A stretch of DNA of 64,000 bases from NCBI RefSeq assembly GCF_014202975.1, contig NZ_JACHHZ010000005.1, positions 186,001 to 250,000 of the forward strand, read 5' to 3'. This DNA comes from Povalibacter uvarum (GTDB taxonomy: Bacteria > Pseudomonadota > Gammaproteobacteria > Steroidobacterales > Steroidobacteraceae). Below are positions 4,947-49,461 of the stretch, piece by piece; position 1 is the first letter of the stretch, and each line of letters starts with the position of its first letter. The notes under the pieces were generated by a model. It searched no databases. It saw only the letters and a program-made list of their open reading frames with translations, and was not told the DNA's origin. The translations under genes were made by a program, and so were the position numbers.

Positions 4947-5702
4947 TCAGAACGTGAATCCCAGCCTGAGCATGGGACCGAACGTGGTCATGTCGTAGAC
5001 GAAGCGTTCTGTCCCGCTGCCGCGATCGTAGTCGTAGCCGAGGGCGCGATAGCCCACAGTCATCAGCATGCGGTCCGAGAAGCGATAGCCGACGTCTCCC
5101 TGCAGCTGCCACACGGAGTCCGAGCTGACGCCGAAGCCGCCGATGTTCGCGCGCCCCACGAGAAACCATTTATCGCCCAGCGGCACGGTGGCGCGCACGA
5201 GCACGGTCGGGTCGACCCAATCCTTGTCGAGGTCCGCGGTGCGACCTATGGCGCCCAGAGGCGTATTGAGCGTGAGATCGAGCTCCGCGTCGATCTTCAT
5301 ATAGATCGCACCGACACCGATCTCCATCCACGGCGACAGGCGAGCGAGGAACGCGAGCTCCCATCCGAGTTGCGACAGCTCGGCCTTGCCGTCCGCAATG
5401 CTCGAGTCCTGCAGAACATCGGCCTCTAGCTTCATGTAGAGGACATCGGAGGTGAACGCCCAGCGATCGTTGTGTGCTTCCGCGTAGAGCATGGCACCGA
5501 ACTGGAGATTCTCGAAAATGTCGCCGGGATCCTCATCGACGTCCACGGGCGGCAAGGAGCCGATGCCCGTCTGGCCCTGCATGTTGGGGAACAGGATGTA
5601 GGGCTCGAGAAGGTAGTGCCAGGAAGTATCCCGATTCGTTTGCGCCTCGGTCGTCGCTGCGCAGAGCGCAAGCACGAGGATCGGCATCATTCGGATCTGC
5701 AT
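4947..5702 (-). CDS. Outer-membrane beta-barrel protein (OmpW/porin-like), unknown ligand
   Basis: About 251 aa. Signal peptide MQIRMMPILVLALCAATTEA is followed by alternating hydrophobic/polar strands rich in aromatic residues. The C-terminus is LRLGFTF, the terminal-Phe signature recognised by the BAM machinery. The length suits an eight- to ten-strand barrel. The start at 5702 has GGGGAGG with 7-base spacing; the longer open frame to 5807 only adds a sequence derived from a family-A repeat. It converges with the small lipoprotein gene. Function unknown. Confidence 0.78.
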   Translation of the reverse strand: MQIRMMPILVLALCAATTEAQTNRDTSWHYLLEPYILFPNMQGQTGIGSLPPVDVDEDPGDIFENLQFGAMLYAEAHNDRWAFTSDVLYMKLEADVLQDSSIADGKAELSQLGWELAFLARLSPWMEIGVGAIYMKIDAELDLTLNTPLGAIGRTADLDKDWVDPTVLVRATVPLGDKWFLVGRANIGGFGVSSDSVWQLQGDVGYRFSDRMLMTVGYRALGYDYDRGSGTERFVYDMTTFGPMLRLGFTF

Positions 5703-5801
5703 GGCGTGGCCTCCCCGTGTTTGCGGACGAGGCTGTTTTACTTGGTGGGGCCCGGCGTTTCGGATACGTAGTCGGGGCAGGTCGGAGGCGATGCGCGTAT
5801 C

Positions 5802-5871
5802 CGTCATCCCCGCGCACGCGGGGACCCATGCCTTTGTTCCGGATGGATTCCCGCCTGCGCGGGAATGACGG
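5802..5871. repeat. Family-A REP-like element, paired palindromes
   Basis: Two palindromes face each other: GTCATCCCCGCG...GCGGGGACCCATG, then GGATGGATTCCCGCC...GCGGGAATGACGG. Together they can fold into a larger cruciform. It sits between two minus-strand genes, just downstream of the M56 gene, where it could act as an mRNA end or stability element. Confidence 0.85.
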
Positions 5872-12893: not shown

Positions 12894-13937
12894 TTACGCC
12901 GGCACCGCCACGACCTTCACCAGCTCATCGATCACTCCATCCGCCGACACCCCTTCCGCGTTCGCGTCGTAGGAAAGAATCAGTCTGTGACGCAGCACCG
13001 GATGAACCACGGCGCGAACATCGTCCGGCGTCACATGATCGCGCCCCTCCAGCCACGCATTGACGCGTGACGTTCGCTCGAGACTGATGCCGCCGCGTGG
13101 GCTCGAACCGATCTGAATCCACTTCTTGAGCGAGTCGCCGTACTTGTCGGGGTGACGTGTGGCGGTGAGCAGATCGATGACGTACTTCTCGATCGCGGGC
13201 GCCACGTGGACCCTGTCGATCTCGCGCCGCGCATCGAACAGCGATTCCTGCGCGATGGCTTTGTCCGAGGACTTGTCCGCGGACCGCGATGCCTTCGTCT
13301 TCTCGCCATTCTCTTCTGGCTTCTGCGCATGGGCCTGCGCAGTCTTTTCTGCTTCTTCCTTGCGCACCAGTTGCAGCACACCGATCTCGCTTTCCGGATC
13401 CGGATAGTCGACGAGCACTTTCATGAGGAAGCGGTCCATCTGCGCTTCGGGCAGCGGATACGTTCCCTCCTGCTCGATCGGATTCTGGGTCGCGAGCACC
13501 ATGAAGAGATCGGGCATCGGATGCGTCTTGCCGGCGACGGTGATCTGTCGCTCTTCCATCGCCTCCAGCAGCGCTGACTGGACTTTCGCGGGTGCGCGAT
13601 TGATCTCGTCCGCGAGGATGACGTTGCCGAAGATCGGCCCGGGCTGGAACTGGAAGACGTTCTTCCCCTCCTGCTGATGCAGTACTTCGGTGCCCGTGAT
13701 ATCCGCCGGCAGCAGATCCGGCGTGAACTGGATGCGCCGCATGTCGGCTTGCAGGCTCTTCGCTAGACTTTTCACCGCGCGCGTCTTCGCGAGTCCCGGC
13801 AAGCTCTCCAGCAGGAGATGTCCGTCCGCGAGCAGCCCGATCAGCATGCTGCGGATCAGATCCTTCTGGCCGAGGATGGAGGTCTCGACGAGCTTCTGGA
13901 GTTCCGCGATGGCGGGTCGCGCAGGCTGAGTCGTCAC
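12894..13937 (-). CDS. MoxR-family AAA+ ATPase with charged insertion
   Basis: About 347 aa. Walker A region LLLESLPGLAKT (the usual first Gly is Ser), Walker B NVILADEINRAPAKVQSALLEAMEE, sensor-1 MVLATQNPIEQEGTYPLPEAQMDRF and lid motif WIQIGSSPRGGISL. MoxR ATPases assist maturation of complexes with DUF58/VWA partners. Residues about 193-232 form a Lys/Glu/Ala/Ser-rich insertion not usual in the family, probably a disordered linker. The gene starts at GTG 13937 in a GTGA overlap with the upstream HAD gene stop; the open frame continues far upstream to 15518, but that is antisense to other genes. The expected DUF58 partner is not downstream; one lies at the left window edge. Confidence 0.9.
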   Translation of the reverse strand: MTTQPARPAIAELQKLVETSILGQKDLIRSMLIGLLADGHLLLESLPGLAKTRAVKSLAKSLQADMRRIQFTPDLLPADITGTEVLHQQEGKNVFQFQPGPIFGNVILADEINRAPAKVQSALLEAMEERQITVAGKTHPMPDLFMVLATQNPIEQEGTYPLPEAQMDRFLMKVLVDYPDPESEIGVLQLVRKEEAEKTAQAHAQKPEENGEKTKASRSADKSSDKAIAQESLFDARREIDRVHVAPAIEKYVIDLLTATRHPDKYGDSLKKWIQIGSSPRGGISLERTSRVNAWLEGRDHVTPDDVRAVVHPVLRHRLILSYDANAEGVSADGVIDELVKVVAVPA

Positions 13938-14932
13938 TTCTGTTCCCACGGATAAATCACTTTCCACTCTTTCTGCATGTCGACGACTGTCCAGCCCTTC
14001 TGCGTCGCCTCGTCCCACGCCTTGTCCAGCGTGCCGATGTGTGACTTGCGGTCGTAGGCCCATTCGCGTTTCGCGTCGGTGTGATGAACGATGCCCATGA
14101 AGCGCGTGCCGCCGCCTGCCGCAGTCCATTGCAGCATCTGGTGATCGCCATCGGAGTTGCCGAACGCGAACACAGGTACGCGTCCGATGAACTTGTTGAT
14201 GCCCGCGGGTTTGCCTTCCTTGTCGTCGACGAAGTCGACCTCGGCGAGCTTGACCAGCACGGGTTTTCCATTCCGGATCTCGTACTTCACCTTGCCGCTG
14301 GAGCCGACGATCTGCTCGGGCGGAATGCCGTAGACCTTCGACGCCCAGGGCCGCATGAATTCGATGCCGCCGCCGGAAACGATGTAGGTCTTGAATCCAT
14401 TGGCACGCAGATACGCGAGCACTTCGAGCATCGGCTGGAAGACGAGCTCGTTGTAGGGCCGCTTGAAGCGCGGGTGCTTCGCGGTTGCGATCCAGTCGGT
14501 GACTGTCTTGCTGAACTCTTCGGTAGTCATGCCAGCATGCGTGACCGCGATCAACTCCAGCAGCCCTTTCTCGCCGGACGCCATCACGGCTTTGGTATCT
14601 CCCTCGATGACGCCTTTGAACGGCTGTTTCGTCTTCCAGTCGGGGTGCTGCGGAGCCAGGGCCTTCACACGATCCAGCGCGAACAGGAGCTGGAAGTAGG
14701 CGGGTTGCTCCGACCAAAGCGTGCCGTCGTTGTCGAAGACTGCGATGCGAGCTTCCGGTGCCACGAACGTCGTCGATCCCTGGCGCGTGGTGTCCGCGAC
14801 GAACTTCACGATGGCCTGCTTTGAAGGGCCGTCGTTCCAGGAAGGCAGCGGATCGGGCGCGGCGGCGATTGCCGGCTGGCTCGCAACGAGCAAGCACATC
14901 AGGAGCGCCTGAAGACTGGCGATGGCTCGCAT
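13934..14932 (-). CDS. Exported HAD-family phosphatase (phosphoserine phosphatase-like)
   Basis: About 332 aa. Signal peptide MRAIASLQALLMCLLVASQP... is followed by HAD motif I FDNDGTLWSE (Asp67 nucleophile, Asp69), motif II in KTYIVSGGGIEF, and motif IV FAFGNSDGDHQML. The cap between motifs I and II is helical, as in the SerB-like subclass. It should hydrolyse a phosphomonoester in the periplasm; the substrate is unknown. The ATG at 14932 has GGAGG at 7-base spacing, so the longer frame to 14959 is not used. The stop overlaps the moxR start by 4 bases, giving a two-gene operon of a secreted phosphatase and a cytoplasmic ATPase. Confidence 0.85.
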   Translation of the reverse strand: MRAIASLQALLMCLLVASQPAIAAAPDPLPSWNDGPSKQAIVKFVADTTRQGSTTFVAPEARIAVFDNDGTLWSEQPAYFQLLFALDRVKALAPQHPDWKTKQPFKGVIEGDTKAVMASGEKGLLELIAVTHAGMTTEEFSKTVTDWIATAKHPRFKRPYNELVFQPMLEVLAYLRANGFKTYIVSGGGIEFMRPWASKVYGIPPEQIVGSSGKVKYEIRNGKPVLVKLAEVDFVDDKEGKPAGINKFIGRVPVFAFGNSDGDHQMLQWTAAGGGTRFMGIVHHTDAKREWAYDRKSHIGTLDKAWDEATQKGWTVVDMQKEWKVIYPWEQK

Positions 14933-15104
14933 GGAAGTTCCTCCGTTTCTGCAAGGCAATGATGAAAGTACGTTGCTGTCCCGGCAGCGGGTATCCGTGG
15001 AAGGGGAAGAAAGCGCCGGCTCGCCGTCTTGCCCGAACTACGCATCCCGGTTGATTGCACGCACCCGGATACTTGACCGCGTGAGGCATACGGGAGGCAG
15101 GGGC

Positions 15105-16538
15105 ATGCATTCGTCGACTCGGACACTCGGCCTGATCGCGGGCGCAGCGTTGCTGTTGCTGGGCAGTGGATGTCGGCAGAAAACCGCCGACCCTGCACCT
15201 CCATCGAAGGCGAGCATGAACGCAGCGCAGGGTGCATCGCTCGAGGAGATGCGAGCCATCGCCAAGGAAGCCTATACATATGGATTCCCGCTCGTGGATA
15301 ACTATCGTGTCCAGTATTCGTACTTCGCGGATGCGGCCAATCCCGAGTACAAGACGGGCTGGAATCAGATATTCAACAACGCGCGTGTCTACACGCCAGA
15401 CGATAAAGCGATCCAGACGCCGAACTCCGATACGCCGTACTCGTACGTCGGTGCCGATCTGCGTGCCGAACCGCTGGTGCTCAGCGTGCCGGCGATGGAG
15501 AAGAACCGCTTCTATCACCTGCAGTTCATCGATCAGTACACCCAGAACTTCGCGTACGTGGGGACGCGGACGACGGGTAACGACGCAGGAACCTTCCTGC
15601 TGGCGGGTCCGCGCTGGCAGGGCGAAGCGCCTGCAGGCATCAAGCAGGTGATCAAGTCCGAGACGGACTTCGCCTTCATCCTGTATCGCACTCAGCTCTT
15701 CGATCCGTCCGACATAGCGAACGTGAAGAAGGTCCAGTCCGGTTACAAGGTACAGACGCTTTCATCGTTCATGGGTCAGGCCGCGCCGCCGGCTGCACCC
15801 ACCGTCGACTTCATCAAGCCGTTGACCGCGACCGAACAGCGTTCATCGCTCGAGTTCTTCAACGTGCTCAACTTCGTGCTGCAGTTCTGTCCGACCGTTC
15901 CCTCCGAAGTCGAGATCATGGAACGGTTTGGAAAGCTCGGCATCGGCGCCGGCAAGACGCTCGATGCGCAGGCTCTGTCACCGCAAATGCGCGCCGCGAT
16001 CGAAGGCGGCATGGCGGATTCGTGGCAAGCGTTCAAAGCCGTGGATCAACAGGCGCAGGAGGGAAAGCTCACCAGCGCGGACTTCTTCGGTACGCGCGAG
16101 CATCTGCGCAACAACTACGAGTACCGCATGGCCGCCGCTGCTGCCGGCATCTACGGCAATTCAATCGAAGAAGCTTTCTACACGCAGTACAAGGGTGACA
16201 CTTCGGTCGATCGTTTCGTGCTGCATTTCCCGCCGGGCCAGCTGCCTCCCGTCGACGCCTTCTGGTCGCTGACGATGTACGAAATGCCGGCGAGCCTGCT
16301 GTATGCGAATCCTCTCAAACGTTACCTCATCAACTCGCCCATGCTCCCGAAGATGAAGAAGGATGCCGATGGCGGCCTGACGCTCTACGTGCAGCACGAG
16401 TCGCCGGGGAAAGCGAAAGAGTCCAACTGGCTGCCCGCACCCGCCGGTCCGATGATGGTCGTGCTGAGGCTCTACGCGCCGAAGCAGGAAGTGCGCGATG
16501 GCACGTGGAAGCGGCCAGCACTGCAGAAGGTGGAGTAA
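15105..16538 (+). CDS. DUF1254/DUF1214 lipoprotein
   Basis: About 477 aa. The lipobox LLGSGC predicts a lipid-anchored envelope protein. The DUF1254 part contains AYTYGFPLVDNYRVQYSYF and NSDTPYSYVGADLRAEPLVLS; the C-terminal DUF1214 part contains PPVDAFWSLTMYEMPASLLYANPLKRYLINS and a final WLPAPAGPMMVVLRLY. The family is widespread and its biochemical role is not established. The frame is open to 14922, but ATG 15105, with GGGAGG about 9 bases upstream, gives the proper signal. A related shorter protein follows about 44 bases downstream, probably in the same transcript. Confidence 0.9.
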   Translation: MHSSTRTLGLIAGAALLLLGSGCRQKTADPAPPSKASMNAAQGASLEEMRAIAKEAYTYGFPLVDNYRVQYSYFADAANPEYKTGWNQIFNNARVYTPDDKAIQTPNSDTPYSYVGADLRAEPLVLSVPAMEKNRFYHLQFIDQYTQNFAYVGTRTTGNDAGTFLLAGPRWQGEAPAGIKQVIKSETDFAFILYRTQLFDPSDIANVKKVQSGYKVQTLSSFMGQAAPPAAPTVDFIKPLTATEQRSSLEFFNVLNFVLQFCPTVPSEVEIMERFGKLGIGAGKTLDAQALSPQMRAAIEGGMADSWQAFKAVDQQAQEGKLTSADFFGTREHLRNNYEYRMAAAAAGIYGNSIEEAFYTQYKGDTSVDRFVLHFPPGQLPPVDAFWSLTMYEMPASLLYANPLKRYLINSPMLPKMKKDADGGLTLYVQHESPGKAKESNWLPAPAGPMMVVLRLYAPKQEVRDGTWKRPALQKVE

Positions 16539-16582
16539 CGCTCGCCCCGGTTCAGTAACGCGGAGAAGCAGGAGAAATGCAG

Positions 16583-17614
16583 ATGAAATCCCGCCTCGTC
16601 GGACCCTTCGCTGCTGCAGCGGGAGTCATTGCCACATGGACTGCCTCCGCGGCCGCGAGCGGCGGCCCGGCGCCAGTGACGGCCGACAACTTCGTTCGTG
16701 CCGAGTCGGATACGTACATCGGCGCCGCGGCGCGTGAGGCGGGTGGTCTCGGCAAGATGCAGCATCGGCGCGAACCTGCGTCGATCGACAATCAGACCGT
16801 CATCCGCCTGAATCGCGACACGCTCTACTCGTCAGTCGTAGTGGATCTCGACGCGGGACCGGTCACGATCACGTTGCCGGACGCCGGCAAGCGATTCATG
16901 TCTCTGCAGCTCATCAGCCAGGATCACTACGCAGTGACCGAGTACGGCGCGGGAGCGCATACATTGAGCAAAGAGAAGATCGGTACGCGCTACGCGATCG
17001 CTGCTGTTCGGACACTGGTCGATCCCAGCGATCCGAAGGACCTGGCGCAAGTCCACAAGCTTCAGGATGCGATCAAGGTCAGCCAGCAGGGCACGGGGAA
17101 ACTCGAGTTGCCCGACTGGGACTCCGCGAGCCAGAAGAAAGTCCGCGACGCGCTGCTGGTCCTCGGCTCGACGCTGCCGGACTATAGGAAGGCTTTCGGC
17201 ACGAAGAAGGACGTCGATCCCGTGCGCCATCTCATAGGCGCAGCGCTTGGTTGGGGAGGCAATCCTGACAAGGACGCGACGTATCTCAACGTGACGCCGT
17301 CGAAGAACGACGGGACGACGGTCTACAAACTGAAAGTGGGAGACGTGCCCGTCGATGCCTTCTGGTCGGTGAGCGTCTACAACGCGCAGGGCTACTTCGA
17401 GAAGAATGCCCACAACGCCTACACGATCAACAACCTCACGGGAAAGAAAGGCGGCGACGGTTCGATCACGATCCAGTTCGGCGGTTGCGACGGCAAGGTC
17501 GCGAACTGCATTCCGATCGTGAAAGGCTGGAACTACACGGTGCGGCTCTATCGGCCGCGCGCCGAGATTCTCGATGGCTCGTGGAAGTTTCCGGAGCCGA
17601 AGCCCGCGGCGTGA
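16583..17614 (+). CDS. Exported DUF1254/DUF1214 protein, second copy
   Basis: About 343 aa. The signal peptide ends near TASAAASGG. DUF1254-like motifs are DNQTVIRLNRDTLYSSVVVDL and FMSLQLISQDHYAVTEYG; DUF1214-like motifs are VPVDAFWSVSVYNAQGYFEKN and WNYTVRLYRPRAEILDGSWKFP. It shares domain order with the preceding lipoprotein but is shorter and diverged, so this is an old paralogue pair. ATG 16583 is preferred over 16577 because AGGAG then sits 8 bases rather than 2 bases away. The stop lies 4 bases from the stop of the convergent regulator gene. Confidence 0.87.
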   Translation: MKSRLVGPFAAAAGVIATWTASAAASGGPAPVTADNFVRAESDTYIGAAAREAGGLGKMQHRREPASIDNQTVIRLNRDTLYSSVVVDLDAGPVTITLPDAGKRFMSLQLISQDHYAVTEYGAGAHTLSKEKIGTRYAIAAVRTLVDPSDPKDLAQVHKLQDAIKVSQQGTGKLELPDWDSASQKKVRDALLVLGSTLPDYRKAFGTKKDVDPVRHLIGAALGWGGNPDKDATYLNVTPSKNDGTTVYKLKVGDVPVDAFWSVSVYNAQGYFEKNAHNAYTINNLTGKKGGDGSITIQFGGCDGKVANCIPIVKGWNYTVRLYRPRAEILDGSWKFPEPKPAA

Positions 17615-20693: not shown

Positions 20694-20785
20694 GCCGGCG
20701 ACTGCCCCTCGTACGCATCCTGTCCCACAGATTTCGTTACTAGAATCGGGCGAGTCTCATCGTCCGTGGCCGGTGGAGATCTGTC

Positions 20786-21223
20786 ATGCGTGCGAGCACG
20801 AATCGGCTTTCTGGTTGCGCCGCCATTCTTCTTTGCGTCTTCGCCGCGCCTGGCTCGACGAATGCGCAATCGGCGCCTTCGGTGCAGCTCATCCAGCAAC
20901 TGGAGAGCCAGTTCGGACTGACGGATCGTCAGGTGCGTGGCGCACTGGGTGCGCTGCTCGTCTACGTACGGGAACGCCTTCCGAAGAAGGACTTCGATGA
21001 TTTCTCGCAGCGCATCCCGAACGCCGCGCAGATCATGCAGGACGTGAAGCTGCAGGGCATCGTGACGAAACCCCTCGACACGATCGACGATTACGAAGCT
21101 TCGTTGGCGAGCCTCGGTATCGGTCAGCCGCTCGCGTCTCAGTTCGCGCCGGCAGTCGTGAAGCATCTTGGCGATGCGGGCTACTACCGCGAGCGGGACA
21201 TCCTCGCGCGAGCGCTGAACTGA
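20786..21223 (+). CDS. Exported DUF2780 (VcgC/VcgE-type) protein
   Basis: 145 aa. The signal peptide ends STNAQSA. The DUF2780 pattern is visible: LIQQLESQFGLTDRQVRGALGALLVYVRERLP, then DTIDDYEASLASLGIGQPLASQFAPAVVKHL. Function is not established for the family. The start has GGTGGAGAT about 6 bases upstream. It stands between the Cys-protein pair and the first sulfatase. Confidence 0.8.
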   Translation: MRASTNRLSGCAAILLCVFAAPGSTNAQSAPSVQLIQQLESQFGLTDRQVRGALGALLVYVRERLPKKDFDDFSQRIPNAAQIMQDVKLQGIVTKPLDTIDDYEASLASLGIGQPLASQFAPAVVKHLGDAGYYRERDILARALN

Positions 21224-21251: not shown

Positions 21252-21297
21252 TTGCCCCAACTACGGAGTCACAAGGGAGTACCGGACGATGACAATC
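21252..21297 (+). promoter_or_regulatory. Conserved block upstream of sulfatase 1
   Basis: TTGCCCCAACTACGGA at 21252 and GATGACAATC at 21288 recur, with the same 36-base offset, upstream of the second sulfatase (23852 and 23888). The block lies 103 bases before this start codon against 107 there. It is a candidate shared operator or promoter, or leftover duplication. Confidence 0.55.
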
Positions 21298-21354
21298 GCC
21301 CGGCGCATTCCTGCGGCAGCAAGTGCGTCGTCATCTCCCACGAGGTAAAACTCC

Positions 21355-22917
21355 ATGAATCGAGCTTCACGATGGCTGTTGATACTCGCATCGATGCTGG
21401 TGTCGACCGCTGCTATGGCTCAGGGCGCCAAGCCGAACATCCTGGTCATCTTCGGCGATGACATAGGTATCCCACAGGTCAGCGCCTACACCCAGGGCCT
21501 CATGGGCTATCGCACTCCGAACATCGATCGCATCGCGAAGGAGGGCGCGCTCTTCACCGACTCGTACTCCCAGAACAGCTGCACGGCGGGGCGAGCGTCG
21601 TTCATTCTCGGCATGGAGCCTTTCCGCACGGGCTTGCTCACGATCGGCATGCCGGGCGATCCGCACGGCATTCCTGACTGGGCGCCGACCATCGCGGATG
21701 TAATGAAGGCGCAGGGCTATACCACCGGACAGTTCGGCAAGAACCATCTCGGCGATCGCGACCAGCATCTGCCGACGAAACACGGCTTCGATGAGTTCTT
21801 CGGCAACCTGTACCACCTGAACGCCGAAGAGGAACCAGAAGGCTACTTCTATCCGAAGGATCCCGAGTTCCGGAAGAAGTTCGGTCCCCGTGGCGTCATT
21901 CATTCGTACGCCGACGGTCGGATCGAAGATACGGGGCCGCTCAACACTGCGCGCATGCCTACCGTCGACGAAGAATTTCTTGGCGCCGCAAAGAACTTCA
22001 TCGACCGCGCTGCTAAAGACAAGAAGCCGTTCTTCGTGTGGTTCAACTCCACGCGCATGCACGTCTTCACGCATCTGAAGAAGGAATCGCTCGGCAAGAC
22101 CGGCGTAGGCATCCACGCGGACGGTATGGTTGAGCATGATGGACACGTCGGCCAGCTTCTCAAGCAGCTCGACGATCTGGGCATCGCGAACAACACCATC
22201 GTTCTGTACACGACCGACAACGGCGCAGAGCTGGCACTGTGGCCCGACGGCGCGATGACGATGTTCCATGGCGAAAAGGGCACGACGTGGGAAGGCGGTT
22301 TCCGCAATCCGATGATGGTGCGCTGGCCCGGCGTCATCAAACCGGGCACCGTTTACAACGACATCATCTCGCTGATGGACTGGATGCCGACGCTCTCGGC
22401 CGCCGCTGGCGAACCCAACGTCGTCAACAAGATGAAGAGCGGCTTCAAGTCCGGCAGCAAGACCTTCAAGGCGCACCTGGACGGCTACAACTTCCTGCCT
22501 TACTTCCAGGGCAAGGAGCCGAAGGGGCCGCGCGATACGATGTTCTACTTCGACCAGGGCGGCAATCTGAACGCGGTGCGCTGGAATGACTGGAAGGTCA
22601 GTTTTGCCATTGCCAGCGAAGGCAATATCGCGACGGCGACGCGCGAAGTTCCCTCATGGGCGATGATCACGAATCTGCGCATGGACCCCTATGAGCGAGG
22701 CATCAAGGAAGGCGGCGAGTCGCTGAAGTTCTTTGCTCAGCAGATGTGGCTGCTCGTGCCGATCCAGCAGCAGATCAAGCAGTTCTTCTCCGACTTCGAT
22801 CAATATCCGTATCAGGCGGGTTCCTCGCTCAATGCGAGCGGCATCGGCTACGGCTTGCTGCGCCAGCAGGATGCCATGAAGCGGTTGAAAGACCTCGAAT
22901 CGATGCGCCCAAGGTAG
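21355..22917 (+). CDS. Periplasmic type-I sulfatase (arylsulfatase family), copy 1
   Basis: 520 aa with a signal peptide ending STAAMAQ. Metal ligands are in LVIFGDDIG. The formylglycine motif CTAGR has Cys76 in the C-x-A-x-R form, which needs oxidation by a sulfatase-modifying enzyme not present in this window. Further conserved pieces are GKNHLGD, HGFDEFFGNLYHLNAEEEPE, TRMHVFTHL and LYTTDNGAE. It should hydrolyse sulfate esters outside the cytoplasm. Nearly all these blocks recur in the second sulfatase. The start has GAGGT at 9-base spacing. Confidence 0.93.
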   Translation: MNRASRWLLILASMLVSTAAMAQGAKPNILVIFGDDIGIPQVSAYTQGLMGYRTPNIDRIAKEGALFTDSYSQNSCTAGRASFILGMEPFRTGLLTIGMPGDPHGIPDWAPTIADVMKAQGYTTGQFGKNHLGDRDQHLPTKHGFDEFFGNLYHLNAEEEPEGYFYPKDPEFRKKFGPRGVIHSYADGRIEDTGPLNTARMPTVDEEFLGAAKNFIDRAAKDKKPFFVWFNSTRMHVFTHLKKESLGKTGVGIHADGMVEHDGHVGQLLKQLDDLGIANNTIVLYTTDNGAELALWPDGAMTMFHGEKGTTWEGGFRNPMMVRWPGVIKPGTVYNDIISLMDWMPTLSAAAGEPNVVNKMKSGFKSGSKTFKAHLDGYNFLPYFQGKEPKGPRDTMFYFDQGGNLNAVRWNDWKVSFAIASEGNIATATREVPSWAMITNLRMDPYERGIKEGGESLKFFAQQMWLLVPIQQQIKQFFSDFDQYPYQAGSSLNASGIGYGLLRQQDAMKRLKDLESMRPR

Positions 22918-22935
22918 TTGCTCGGACTGGATCGC

Positions 22936-22966
22936 GCGGAGAGGCGCCCGGGCCTCTCCGCCTTTC
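22936..22966. terminator. Intrinsic terminator between convergent genes
   Basis: A 10-base perfect stem GCGGAGAGGC / GCCTCTCCGC (22936-22945 and 22952-22961) with a 6-base loop is followed by CTTTC. It sits between the sulfatase stop (22917) and the end of the convergent DUF4239 gene (22965), so it could end both transcripts; the T run is weak. Confidence 0.65.
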
Positions 22967-23762
22967 ACCGCGCAGCCCCATCCGCTGCCGCGTCGGCTTC
23001 CATGCCCTGCTGCAGTTCCAGCATCGACTGCTGACTGATCCGCAGAAATCCCTCCTGGGACCGATCGAGATCACTGATCAGCATGATGACGCCAGCGAAC
23101 GCGACGGCCAGGCACGTCACGGGGGCGCCGATGCGGGCGCCGCTCACGCCGGCCTGGTAACCCATCGCGAGCATGCCGATCGCGGTTGAAGCGAACATGA
23201 AGGCCCAGATGGTCATCGGAATCCGGTTGCGCTGAATCGCGATGCGTTCACCGTGTACGTCGATCATCTCGTTGAGCGCACCGATGAACAATGGCAGCGA
23301 GGTCGATGTCGGCTGCTCGGCCGCCAGTGGCGAGGCACGCTGCCACATCGCGCGTTGCAGTTCATCCGATCCCGTCAGGAACGCAGCGTAGTTGTTCTTG
23401 TGCAAGGCGCCATCGAGCCTTATCGCCACGTACTGTCGCAGATGAACACGCAGTTCCGCTCCCACGGGTTCGGGGAGCAGCCACGTGCGCAGGTAGGTCG
23501 TTCCGATCGCATTGGCATCCTTCACGACCAGCGCCTTGCGCGCGTCGAAGCGCGAGGCGGCCATCGAGAAAGTGAAGGCGAGCACGAATGCCAGCAGGCC
23601 GAGCGTTGCACCGACAGAGGCACCGATCGGTCCCTCTGCTTCGGCGCCCCGGGCGACGGCGCGTCGTCCCAGCCAGCGGCCCGCGCCGATGAATGCGAAC
23701 GCGAGCACGAGCGTCAGGACGAAGAGCATCGGGATCGGGATCAGGTCGCGGATTTCTTCCAT
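22965..23762 (-). CDS. DUF4239 (bestrophin-like) membrane protein
   Basis: 265 aa with membrane helices at about 10-28, 48-66, 180-200 and 207-228. The pattern GLLAFVLAFTFSMAASRFDARKALVVKDANAIGTTYLR is typical of DUF4239; these proteins resemble bestrophin channels, and function is unproven. It lies in opposite orientation between two paralogous sulfatase genes, so it interrupts what may once have been a direct tandem pair. Confidence 0.82.
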   Translation of the reverse strand: MEEIRDLIPIPMLFVLTLVLAFAFIGAGRWLGRRAVARGAEAEGPIGASVGATLGLLAFVLAFTFSMAASRFDARKALVVKDANAIGTTYLRTWLLPEPVGAELRVHLRQYVAIRLDGALHKNNYAAFLTGSDELQRAMWQRASPLAAEQPTSTSLPLFIGALNEMIDVHGERIAIQRNRIPMTIWAFMFASTAIGMLAMGYQAGVSGARIGAPVTCLAVAFAGVIMLISDLDRSQEGFLRISQQSMLELQQGMEADAAADGAAR

Positions 23763-23851
23763 CGGCTACCTCGGCAGTGCAGCGTACCGGCAGATTTCCT
23801 TACCTGAGTGCTTCGACCGCGTCGCTACGTATCTACGGCAGTCATTCGAAG

Positions 23852-23897
23852 TTGCCCCATCTACGGACTGTCAAAGTGACGGGAGCCGATGACAATC
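23852..23897 (+). promoter_or_regulatory. Conserved block upstream of sulfatase 2
   Basis: TTGCCCCATCTACGGA at 23852 and GATGACAATC at 23888 match the block upstream of sulfatase 1 with identical internal spacing. The intervening bases are less conserved. Confidence 0.55.
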
Positions 23898-23958: not shown

Positions 23959-25545
23959 ATGAACCGATTGTTCGTCCTGCTCATGGGCTCATTGCTGTCG
24001 ACGGCTGCCATGGCCCAGGGAGCGAAACCCAACATCCTCGTGATCTTTGGCGACGACGTTGGGCAGTCGAACATCAGCGCGTACACGCACGGTCTCGTCG
24101 GCTACAAGACACCGAACATCGACCGCATCGCCAAGGAAGGCATGATGTTCACGGACTACTACGCCGAGAACAGTTGCACCGCCGGACGCTCGACGTTCAT
24201 CACGGGTCAGAGTGTGTTCCGCACGGGCCTGTCGAAGGTGGGGCTGCCTGGTGCACCCGTGGGACTTCAGGATCGCGACATCACGATCGCACAGGCGTTG
24301 AAGCCGCTCGGCTACGCCACTGCGCAGTTCGGCAAGAACCATCTTGGCGATCAGGACAAGTTCCTGCCGACCAATCATGGCTTCGATGAGTTCTTCGGCA
24401 ATCTGTACCACCTCAATGCCGAAGAAGAGCCGGAGCGGCCCTACTGGCCGAAGAACGATCCGGCCTTCCTCAAGTTCTATAATCCGCGCGGTGTCATTCG
24501 TTCGTCTTCCGACGGCAAGATCGAGGATACCGGCGCGTTGAACCGCAAGCGGATGGAAACGATCGACGACGAAACCACCGGCGCTGCGATCAGCTACATC
24601 CAGCGGCAGGCGCAAGCCAACAAGCCCTTCTTCGTCTGGATGAACTTCACCCGCATGCACGTCTTCACTCACGTGCGCCCGGAGTATCGCGGCAAGGCCG
24701 GCATGGGACCGGGGCATGAATATGCGGACGGCATGTGGGAGATGGATCAGAACGTCGGCAAGATTCTCAAGGCCGTGGACGATGCGGGCATCGCGAACAA
24801 CACGATCGTCGTCTTCACCACCGACAACGGACCGAATTTCTTCAGTTGGCCGGATGCGGCCAATACGCCGTTCCGAAGCGAAAAGGATTCGAACTGGGAA
24901 GGCGCATTCCGTGTGCCCGCGATGGTTCGCTGGCCCGGGAAGATCAAGCCCGGCGAGATTTCCAATGGCCTGATGTCGGGGCTGGACTGGTTCCCCACGC
25001 TGCTGGCCGCGGCCGGTGACGCGAGCATCAAGGACAAACTGCTGAAGGGCACCAGCCTCGGCGGCAAGTCGGCGAAGGTGCACCTGGATGGCTACAACCA
25101 GCTGCCGCTGCTGACTGGGCAGACCGACAAGAGCGCGCGCACCGAGTTCTACTATTTCAATGATGACGCAGATCTGGTGGCGATGCGTTACGACAATTAT
25201 CTGCAGGGCGCAACCAGCCCGGACGCGTGGAAGATCGTGTTCTGCGAACAGCGCGCGCAAGGCGGATTGGAAATCTGGAAGGAGCCGTTCACGTGTCTGA
25301 GGGCGCCGAACATGTACAACCTGCGCATGGATCCATACGAGCGGGCGTCCGTCGGACCGACGAGTGGGTATCAGGCGATGATGACGGATAACGTGTACAT
25401 CCCCATCGACGCACAGCGGCGCGCTGCTGCATTCCTGCAGACATTCATCGAGTACCCGCCCAGCCAGATCCCCGCCAGCTTCACCATCGACCAGATCGAG
25501 GAGAGCGTGAAGCGGCAGGTGACGGAGAAGATGCAGAAGAAGTAG
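23959..25545 (+). CDS. Periplasmic type-I sulfatase (arylsulfatase family), copy 2
   Basis: 528 aa. Signal peptide ending STAAMAQ and mature N-terminus GAKPNILVIFGDDVG are almost the same as in copy 1. The formylglycine motif is CTAGR (Cys73), in NSCTAGRSTF. Other shared blocks are FGKNHLGDQDKFLP, GFDEFFGNLYHLNAEEEPE and FTTDNGPNFFSWPDA. The C-terminal half diverges from copy 1 (an extra EQRAQGGLEIWKEPF), suggesting a different sulfated substrate. The start has AAGGAG at 8-base spacing. Confidence 0.93.
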   Translation: MNRLFVLLMGSLLSTAAMAQGAKPNILVIFGDDVGQSNISAYTHGLVGYKTPNIDRIAKEGMMFTDYYAENSCTAGRSTFITGQSVFRTGLSKVGLPGAPVGLQDRDITIAQALKPLGYATAQFGKNHLGDQDKFLPTNHGFDEFFGNLYHLNAEEEPERPYWPKNDPAFLKFYNPRGVIRSSSDGKIEDTGALNRKRMETIDDETTGAAISYIQRQAQANKPFFVWMNFTRMHVFTHVRPEYRGKAGMGPGHEYADGMWEMDQNVGKILKAVDDAGIANNTIVVFTTDNGPNFFSWPDAANTPFRSEKDSNWEGAFRVPAMVRWPGKIKPGEISNGLMSGLDWFPTLLAAAGDASIKDKLLKGTSLGGKSAKVHLDGYNQLPLLTGQTDKSARTEFYYFNDDADLVAMRYDNYLQGATSPDAWKIVFCEQRAQGGLEIWKEPFTCLRAPNMYNLRMDPYERASVGPTSGYQAMMTDNVYIPIDAQRRAAAFLQTFIEYPPSQIPASFTIDQIEESVKRQVTEKMQKK

Positions 25546-47706: not shown

Positions 47707-49260
47707 CTAGTTAGTCTTCGCCTGACGCTCCTTCTCCCGCTGCTCCGAGACCAGCGAGTACGCCACGTAATACTTGTAGATGTTGCTGACGTACTGAACG
47801 GTCTCGCGGCCGACTTTCTCCGAGACCACCACCTCGACGTTGTTGAACCATTTGTTCGGATCGAGGCCGCGCTTCGCGGCCGTCTCGCGCAGGCTGCGGA
47901 TGCGGTTCGGTCCGGCATTGTACGAGGCGAACGCGAACAGGGCCTTGTTGACCTCGTCCATGGGTTCGTCGGCGTAGTACTGGTCGATCATGAAGCGCAC
48001 GTACTTCACGCCGGCGTGAATGTTCGGTTCGATCTGGCGGATGTCGCCGACTTTCATGTCTTTGCCCGTTGCCGGCATTATCTGCATGACGCCGATGGCG
48101 CCGACGTGGCTGCGCACTTTCTGGTCGAGACCGGATTCCTGGTATCCCTGCGCGGCCATCAGCAGCCAGTCGATCTGGTACTGCTCGCTGTATTTCTTGA
48201 ACAGTTCAGCCAGCTGAACGAACTTCTGGCGCTCCGCATCGGAGGTGGCGCTCTTCGCCCAACGCGTGTTCTGCAGGTATTTCTGGATGACGACGTTGCC
48301 GAAGGTCGTGCCGCGCTTGTTCTTCTCGATGAAAGCATCGAGCTCGGCCTTCAGTTGCGGGCTGTTCTTGCGCACAGCGAAGGCAATGTCGCCGGCCTCG
48401 CGCACGACCAGGTCCTCGCGAACCTTCATGTCCTTGTAGATCTGGCTCCAGAACATCGCGAGATAGCGGTCGACGACGCTGTATTTCACCAGGCCGGCGT
48501 TCACCATCTCCAGCACGTCTTCGGCCTCGAATGTCGGCGGCGCATCGCGCAATGCGATCGGTGCCTTGCCCCGCTTTTTCAGGTCGGCATTCAGCGCCGT
48601 CAGGCTGCCGTAGTAGCTCGACGTTCGCTGCACGAAGATTTCCTTGCCGGAGAGGTCGTCGAGCGACGCGATCGGCGGCGCGTCGGCTGAGGTGACCACG
48701 ATCTCCTTGACGCCTGTTGCCAGCGGTGTCGTGAACTCGACGAGCTTGCTGCGCTCCGGTGTGACGGTCATGTTCGCGGCGATGACATCGCCATGCCCGG
48801 CATTGAGCTGCGGAATAAGTTGGTCGCGCGACGTGGGGAAGAACACCACGGCGACGCGCAGTTTGGTGAGCTTGTGCTTGGTGTTCAGCGTCTTGTCGAA
48901 CTCCTGCATCAGCTCGTAGCTGAGACCGCGCTGCGTCGCATTGTCGAGGAAGTAGAACGTCTTGCTGTAGGGCACGAGCACGCGGATCATCCGCCGCTCG
49001 ATCATGCCGTTCAGATCGCCGGTCCATGGCTTGGTGTTGACCTCGAAGTTGAGGCCATCGTCGACACCCTCGTCCTCCGCAGCGGACTGCGCGGTCGGAC
49101 TATCTGCAGGCAGAGTCTCGGCGGGTGCCGCAGTCTGCGCAGCGGGCTCTGGTGCGCGCTGATCTGCAGGCGCAGCAGCAGGCGGCTGCTTCTGTTCAGG
49201 CTGCCCGTCGCCGCATCCCGCAGCGAGAAGAGAACACAGGAACAAGGGGCCAAACCGCAT
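47707..49260 (-). CDS. mltF: MltF-like lytic transglycosylase lipoprotein
   Basis: About 517 aa. Lipobox SLLAAGCGDG, then an Ala/Pro-rich linker. An SBP_bac_3-type domain (MIRVLVPYSKTFYFLDNATQRGLSYELMQEFDK; IAANMTVTPERSKLVEFTTPL) precedes an SLT domain with the catalytic Glu in AAQGYQESGLDQKV, and GAIGVMQIMPATG. It cleaves peptidoglycan with formation of 1,6-anhydro-muramic acid; the regulatory N-domain binds cell-wall peptides in the family. The start at 49260 follows CGGAG; the longer frame to 49293 would break the lipobox spacing. Confidence 0.93.
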   Translation of the reverse strand: MRFGPLFLCSLLAAGCGDGQPEQKQPPAAAPADQRAPEPAAQTAAPAETLPADSPTAQSAAEDEGVDDGLNFEVNTKPWTGDLNGMIERRMIRVLVPYSKTFYFLDNATQRGLSYELMQEFDKTLNTKHKLTKLRVAVVFFPTSRDQLIPQLNAGHGDVIAANMTVTPERSKLVEFTTPLATGVKEIVVTSADAPPIASLDDLSGKEIFVQRTSSYYGSLTALNADLKKRGKAPIALRDAPPTFEAEDVLEMVNAGLVKYSVVDRYLAMFWSQIYKDMKVREDLVVREAGDIAFAVRKNSPQLKAELDAFIEKNKRGTTFGNVVIQKYLQNTRWAKSATSDAERQKFVQLAELFKKYSEQYQIDWLLMAAQGYQESGLDQKVRSHVGAIGVMQIMPATGKDMKVGDIRQIEPNIHAGVKYVRFMIDQYYADEPMDEVNKALFAFASYNAGPNRIRSLRETAAKRGLDPNKWFNNVEVVVSEKVGRETVQYVSNIYKYYVAYSLVSEQREKERQAKTN

Positions 49261-49461
49261 TTCCGCTCCGGCAAGGCGCGTCACCCGCCCCATTGTCGGC
49301 TGTGGGGAGGCGAGATGTATCCGTAGTAGGTGAAAGCGGGCATCCGCGAGGGCTGCAGCGGATATTTCGGCGATTTGCCCCGCCCCGGGCGCTGCCCACT
49401 TCCCCTATTTTCGCCGCTTCCGAGTCGGTCCACAGTGCCGCCTCGACCTCGGAGGCCACCC

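Follow-up and report, generated by a model that had tools for sequence, protein, structure and literature searches.

The window analyzed here is a 64,000-nucleotide stretch of the Povalibacter uvarum genome (positions 186,001 to 250,000 of contig NZ_JACHHZ010000005.1). It holds two genes for exported sulfatases, which are paralogues (53% identical), with a bestrophin-like gene between them. A 16-bp sequence that we call box A precedes both sulfatase genes and several other genes of the window. The features are as follows, numbered from the first letter of the window; elsewhere, contigs and genomes carry C and G labels.

5765..5780, minus strand: box A, CTGCCCCGACTACGTA, before an outer-membrane beta-barrel-like gene (ORF 4947-5807, start at about 5702)
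14994..15009, minus strand: weak candidate box, CTTCCCCTTCCACGGA, matrix score 12.9, before a HAD-family gene (13934-14959)
15029..15044, plus strand: box A, TTGCCCGAACTACGCA, before an exported lipoprotein-like gene (ORF 14922-16538, likely ATG at 15105)
15068..15073, plus strand: predicted -10 element GATACT, +39 from box start
20702..20717, plus strand: box A, CTGCCCCTCGTACGCA, before a DUF2780 gene (20786-21223)
20741..20746, plus strand: predicted -10 element TAGAAT, +39 from box start
21252..21267, plus strand: box A, candidate activator operator, TTGCCCCAACTACGGA, before the sulfatase gene at 21355
21291..21296, plus strand: predicted -10 element GACAAT, +39 from box start, within the second block at 21288-21297 (from the 24-promoter alignment)
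21355..22917, plus strand: exported sulfatase, PF00884, 520 aa
22965..23762, minus strand: bestrophin-like protein, PF14023, between the two sulfatase genes
23852..23867, plus strand: box A, TTGCCCCATCTACGGA, before the sulfatase gene at 23959
23891..23896, plus strand: predicted -10 element GACAAT, +39 from box start
23959..25545, plus strand: exported sulfatase, PF00884, 528 aa; box A also precedes its 90% identical orthologue in a Steroidobacter MAG
49320..49335, minus strand: weaker box A, TTTCACCTACTACGGA, with GACAAT at +38, before an SBP_bac_3/transglycosylase SLT lipoprotein gene (ORF 47707-49293)

The names DUF1254/1214 and DUF3313 that we use for boxed genes come from similarity and reading: ORF 14922-16538 was assigned to the DUF1254/1214 type by its similarity to neighbors and relatives, and the Pfam scan covered the neighboring DUF1254/1214 gene at 16577-17614. 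The candidate box at 14994..15009 scored under the regulon threshold. At 14994-15044, two boxes stand back to back, about 20 bases apart: the minus-strand box, which precedes the HAD-family gene, is weak, and the plus-strand box is strong.

Paired blocks upstream of the sulfatase genes

Each of the two sulfatase genes is preceded by two blocks at constant spacing. The first, TTGCCCCA(A/T)CTACGGA, occupies 21252-21267 and 23852-23867, and the second, GATGACAATC, occupies 21288-21297 and 23888-23897, which gives a start-to-start offset of 36 bases at both loci. Box starts lie 103 bases (ATG at 21355) and 107 bases (ATG at 23959) before the start codons. An earlier, sequence-only reading had described the blocks, their 36-base offset, their distance of 103-107 bases from the start codons, and the variable bases between them, and our coordinates agree with it on every one of these points. 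A scan of the window with the block pattern, allowing up to three mismatches, returned 6 matches (0.60 expected), a number reached in none of 100 shuffles. Across the 6.32-Mb genome, the exact pattern occurs three times (reversed-pattern control, 0), the third copy lying on a different contig near a third sulfatase gene. The block pair is commoner than chance and is a real observation.

The sequence-only reading had named, as evidence against itself, upstream regions of the two genes that are equally identical along their full length; this is not what we found. When the two upstream regions are compared with each other, identity is 15/16 in block 1 and 10/10 in block 2, and only 7/20 in the spacer between them. 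On the 5′ side it is 15/50, 13/50, and 9/50 in the intervals -150 to -100, -100 to -50, and -50 to 0 from the box start, and on the 3′ side of the second block it is 12/29 and then 6/25; identity outside both blocks and spacer is thus 18-41%. Given this sharp profile, the block spacing is conserved in its own right and is not carried by general similarity. The paralogy of the sulfatases could invite the view that the two promoters are alike merely through gene duplication, as a neutral remnant. We regard that view as barely credible, and the identity profile leads us to reject it: the flanking DNA is at background identity, and the box with its -10 element also stands before unrelated gene families and in another species. 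In this respect, the earlier preference for an operator or promoter pair over neutral duplication was well placed.

Promoter architecture and a probable regulon

We aligned 24 candidate promoters by box start, 16 from this genome and 8 from Steroidobacter genome G013; some of the sites from which the scanning matrix was built had been picked by eye. Box A has the consensus YTKCCCSNNCTACGKA, and a -10 element of the form NANNNT is nearly always found at +38 to +40. Strong conservation is confined to two places, the box itself (positions 0 to 15, trailing off weakly as far as +18; about 12 of its 16 positions are strongly conserved) and the hexamer that occupies +39 to +44, where A at +40 occurs in 20 of the 24 promoters and T at +44 in 19, nothing comparable being seen between +19 and +39. 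The hexamers include GACAAT, GATACT, TAGAAT, CAACAT, and CAGCAT. Among the 24, the -10 element is poor or shifted at C1:665952, C1:666071, and G013 C18:85214, and it stands at +36 at C1:649670. No conserved -35 hexamer is present between the box and the -10 element in the aligned promoters. A long rigid pattern joining the two elements proved too strict to be useful.

From this alignment, it is very probable that the blocks are a switch site bound by a protein and a promoter -10 box, and GATGACAATC reads as a -10 element plus flank. The sequence-only reading had taken both blocks as a protein-binding operator or promoter pair; the pair stands, and its parts can now be told apart, block 1 as the candidate operator and block 2 as the -10 element. 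We consider it likely, on the evidence of the letters, that the pair forms a sigma-70 promoter module that depends on an activator and serves a small regulon restricted to this lineage. Were transcription to begin about 7 bases past the -10 element, box A would lie at about -51 to -36, the position of a class II activator. With the starts so placed, the 24 promoters combine an operator over the -35 region, at a fixed distance from the -10 element, with a weak or absent -35 hexamer. In class II activation of this kind, the activator would bind box A, make contact with RNA polymerase across the -35 region, and turn on a small regulon, most of whose members are exported proteins (sulfatases, DUF1254/1214-, DUF3313-, and DUF2780-type, outer-membrane, and bestrophin-like proteins).

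Two other readings of the architecture have to be weighed. Two conserved blocks at constant spacing could instead be the -35 and -10 elements of an alternative sigma factor. In promoters of the sigma-70 family, however, these elements are usually 16-18 bases apart, whereas about 23 bases separate the end of CTACGKA from the -10 element, and box A is 16 bp long with its dozen or so strongly conserved positions; we therefore find an alternative sigma factor very unlikely. A repressor bound at box A is unlikely as well: a site over the -35 region would suit one too, but the lack of a conserved -35 hexamer is what is expected where an activator replaces the -35 element. The activator-dependent module is the reading we carry forward.

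Box A with a -10 element at matching spacing precedes about 16 genes in this genome, most of them encoding exported proteins or lipoproteins. The boxed genes include those for three sulfatases, bestrophin-like, DUF2780, and beta-barrel-like proteins, a DUF1254/1214-type exported protein, a DUF3313-like lipoprotein, a multihaem cytochrome/TPR protein, a transglycosylase lipoprotein, an alpha/beta hydrolase, and a PF10136 protein. The sequence-only reading had pointed to weaker look-alikes of the block at 15029 and 20703 (box start 20702 in our numbering) and to a possible regulon; both look-alikes bear a -10-like hexamer at +39 (GATACT and TAGAAT) and are probable members, and a regulon is borne out by the sites found here together with about 8 candidate box A promoters in one relative.

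The matrix statistics cover about 0.7 Mb of this genome, supplemented by pattern searches. In that scan, the best sites fall into two clusters, C5:94-250 kb and C1:640-670 kb. Sites scoring at least 14 number 11 in C5:94-250 kb (156 kb) versus 1 in C5:270-550 kb (280 kb), the latter being the fairer comparison because much of the 0.7 Mb was chosen for containing matches. At C1:665937-666086, a bestrophin-like gene and the third sulfatase gene are divergent, with one box A facing each way; the arrangement of this bestrophin paralogue and sulfatase echoes the order sulfatase/bestrophin/sulfatase in the window.

The relative, G013, served as an independent test. A matrix trained on the P. uvarum genome only was run over 140 kb of G013 and returned 9 sites scoring at least 14, compared with about 0.9 expected (shuffled-column matrices: mean 0.91, maximum 6, 300 trials). 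NANNNT is present at +38 to +40 in 8 of these 9 sites (9% expected), although some matrix matches in G013, such as that at 75344, are without a -10 element and may be false. Orthologous genes are boxed in both genomes, namely those for sulfatases, the C5:169459 protein, the DUF3313-like lipoprotein, and an outer-membrane protein. The 90% identical sulfatase orthologue carries TTGCCCGAACTACGGA, with GACAAT at +39, and the orthologue of the beta-barrel-like gene (ORF 4947-5807) is weakly boxed. A site on C18 of G013 precedes an Omp85-like gene, the P. uvarum orthologue of which lies directly after the boxed C1 sulfatase gene.

Judging from the targets, which are mostly envelope or exported proteins, the likeliest role of the regulon is an envelope or nutrient response. 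Elsewhere on the contig, at C5:138-150 kb (loci L123 and L124), amino-acid decarboxylase- and antiporter-like genes, with gene starts read by eye, lie near a glutaminase gene and the two-component module; such genes could point to acid resistance.

Distribution of box A and comparison with known operators

When 200 genomes of the family were searched, strict matches to YTGCCCCNNCTACGBA numbered 9 in P. uvarum, 3 in G013, and 0-1 elsewhere, which is near the reversed control. One further box A is convincing (C285:46737 of G011, with TAGGCT at +39). It stands before an acyl-carrier-protein-like gene, a target different from those in P. uvarum and G013. At 80 orthologous sulfatase loci from Pseudomonas, Burkholderiales, rhizobia, and others, an upstream box A was found at the Steroidobacter locus only, and relaxed box patterns occurred at background level. 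On this count of 1/80, we reject a sulfatase operator conserved across taxa, and box A reads, from its distribution, as a lineage-specific control and not as a general sulfatase operator. The sequence-only reading had named absence of the block at orthologous sulfatases in relatives as a point against it: outside the genus the block is indeed absent, but the closest orthologue, that of Steroidobacter, has it.

Another element, TTTACCGTTACGTACTTCC, is strongly conserved among rhizobial sulfatase orthologues (loci L072, L076, L083, L090, L091, and L095). Its distance upstream of the sulfatase match is about 190-300 bases, and the L076 and L095 loci have a second copy elsewhere. GTACGTA occurs upstream in 8 of the 80 sulfatase loci, versus 0.5 expected.

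Sites of NarL/FixJ-type regulators are usually inverted repeats. In the 24-promoter alignment, box A lacks this symmetry, its halves TTGCCCC and TMCGTAG (reverse strand) sharing little, and we therefore did not class it as a NarL/FixJ-type operator. The FixJ operators of alphaproteobacteria, as in the fixK promoter, do resemble it in being 16 bp long and in lying upstream of a promoter -10 element. The FixJ consensus is GTAMGTAG (quoted in PMC4999443; PfixK, PMC13327599). On the reverse strand, three box A copies read GTACGTAG, which fits this half-site exactly; most sites have a partial CGTAG, and a GTAGTT core is seen in others. The two differ in the second half (GGGG in box A, TTTCCC in FixJ operators), in the genes served, and in number, with about 16 box A copies against a few FixJ targets; moreover, the reader of box A is a candidate only.

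The CrbR ACTU motif of gammaproteobacterial acs/actP promoters is similar in position, being the operator of a LuxR-family regulator upstream of an RpoD promoter, at -52 to -36 (PMC5715377). The ACTU sites form imperfect inverted repeats (TACGACC...GTCG type), whereas the letters and targets of box A differ; compared with the sites in PMC5715377, box A does not form a TACGACC-NNN-GTCG-type repeat, and we rejected its membership. Among the literature that we searched, which omits most subscription journals, no described regulon of this kind was found. The operator and its regulon are new, and of a familiar kind.

Candidate regulators and box B

The contig that carries the window also encodes a FixJ-type set, all on the minus strand, consisting of a kinase (C5:177048-178886), a regulator (C5:176419-177051), and a receiver-only protein (C5:171990-172358). 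The solved chains nearest to the regulator are FixJ 5xso and 1yio, a response regulatory protein that we take to be StyR. Its G013 orthologue (71% identical) lies on a box-rich contig, and no other genome in the genus holds a close copy; G016 and G097 have orthologues at 62% and 55%.

A second sequence, box B (TTCCCCTNNAGGYAGTR), lies upstream of the genes of the C5:171-179 kb module and has been located at the following sites.

P. uvarum: C5:176398 and C5:174755, minus strand
G013: C24:121074, minus strand
G016: C277:9397 and 14705
G097: C34:1612 and C12:46755

The downstream genes are exported genes of the FixJ/StyR-type module, encoding porin-like, glutaminase, receiver, and aspartase-like products. 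Box B resembles box A in its left half (TTCCCC), its length of about 17 bp, and a -10-like TAGCGT at +38/39 in several copies. It differs in its right half (AGGYAGTR) and in being nearly palindromic. All 4 genomes with this regulator have box B, versus 3 of the 196 others, and those 3 show no clear -10 element; as box B was first defined from two of the four regulator genomes, this co-occurrence is supportive and not a clean test.

We initially favored the C5:176419-177051 regulator as the reader of box A because GTACGTAG is exact in three copies. It shares the C5 region with the box A sites and is present in both box A genomes. On this reading, box A would be a second class of site next to box B, and two classes of binding site have been reported for FixJ itself (PMC4999443). 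The regulator was lowered as a reader of box A because G016 and G097, which hold orthologues, have no box A on the contigs concerned and no strict box A in the genome, and because box B lies in its own module. We now consider this assignment doubtful; the regulator more probably reads box B.

Somewhat less doubtful, though still on the unlikely side, is a reader from another FixJ-type clade, that of the G013 regulator at C24:95141-95776 and the P. uvarum regulator at C6:3393. The G013 gene belongs to a kinase-regulator-receiver set (C24:94677-97341, minus strand) with box A promoters on both sides (97397, plus strand, before a sulfatase gene, and 94641, minus strand, before another gene), and the C6:3393, G013, and G012 regulators are joined in one clade with support of 98/92. 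However, C6:3393 is only 53% identical and has no good box nearby, no close orthologue of the G013 C24 kinase was found in the P. uvarum genome, and G012, whose genome is 84% complete, has no strict box A. The genus-wide FixJ-type regulators C1:1156123 and C2:1203886 are unlikely readers, since genomes holding them are without box A. A regulator outside the FixJ type is a possible reader.

Taking these lines together, we put at about even chances that the activator at box A belongs to the NarL/FixJ-type response regulators and is paralogous to the C5:176.4 kb regulator, which is itself probably the reader of box B. More tentatively, we suggest that duplicated FixJ-type systems may each have kept the promoter geometry while their operators diverged into A and B, so that one cluster would hold two parallel regulons and box A would mark a previously unknown envelope/sulfatase regulon. 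If this is true, boxes A and B would offer a compact example of how the operators of paralogous response regulators diverge.

The module supplies a cis-element and a gene list for unexplained exported proteins (DUF1254/1214-type, DUF2780, DUF3313-type, and bestrophin-like proteins, and sulfatases) that are apparently switched on together. The signal, once found, would reveal the joint function of these boxed exported proteins.
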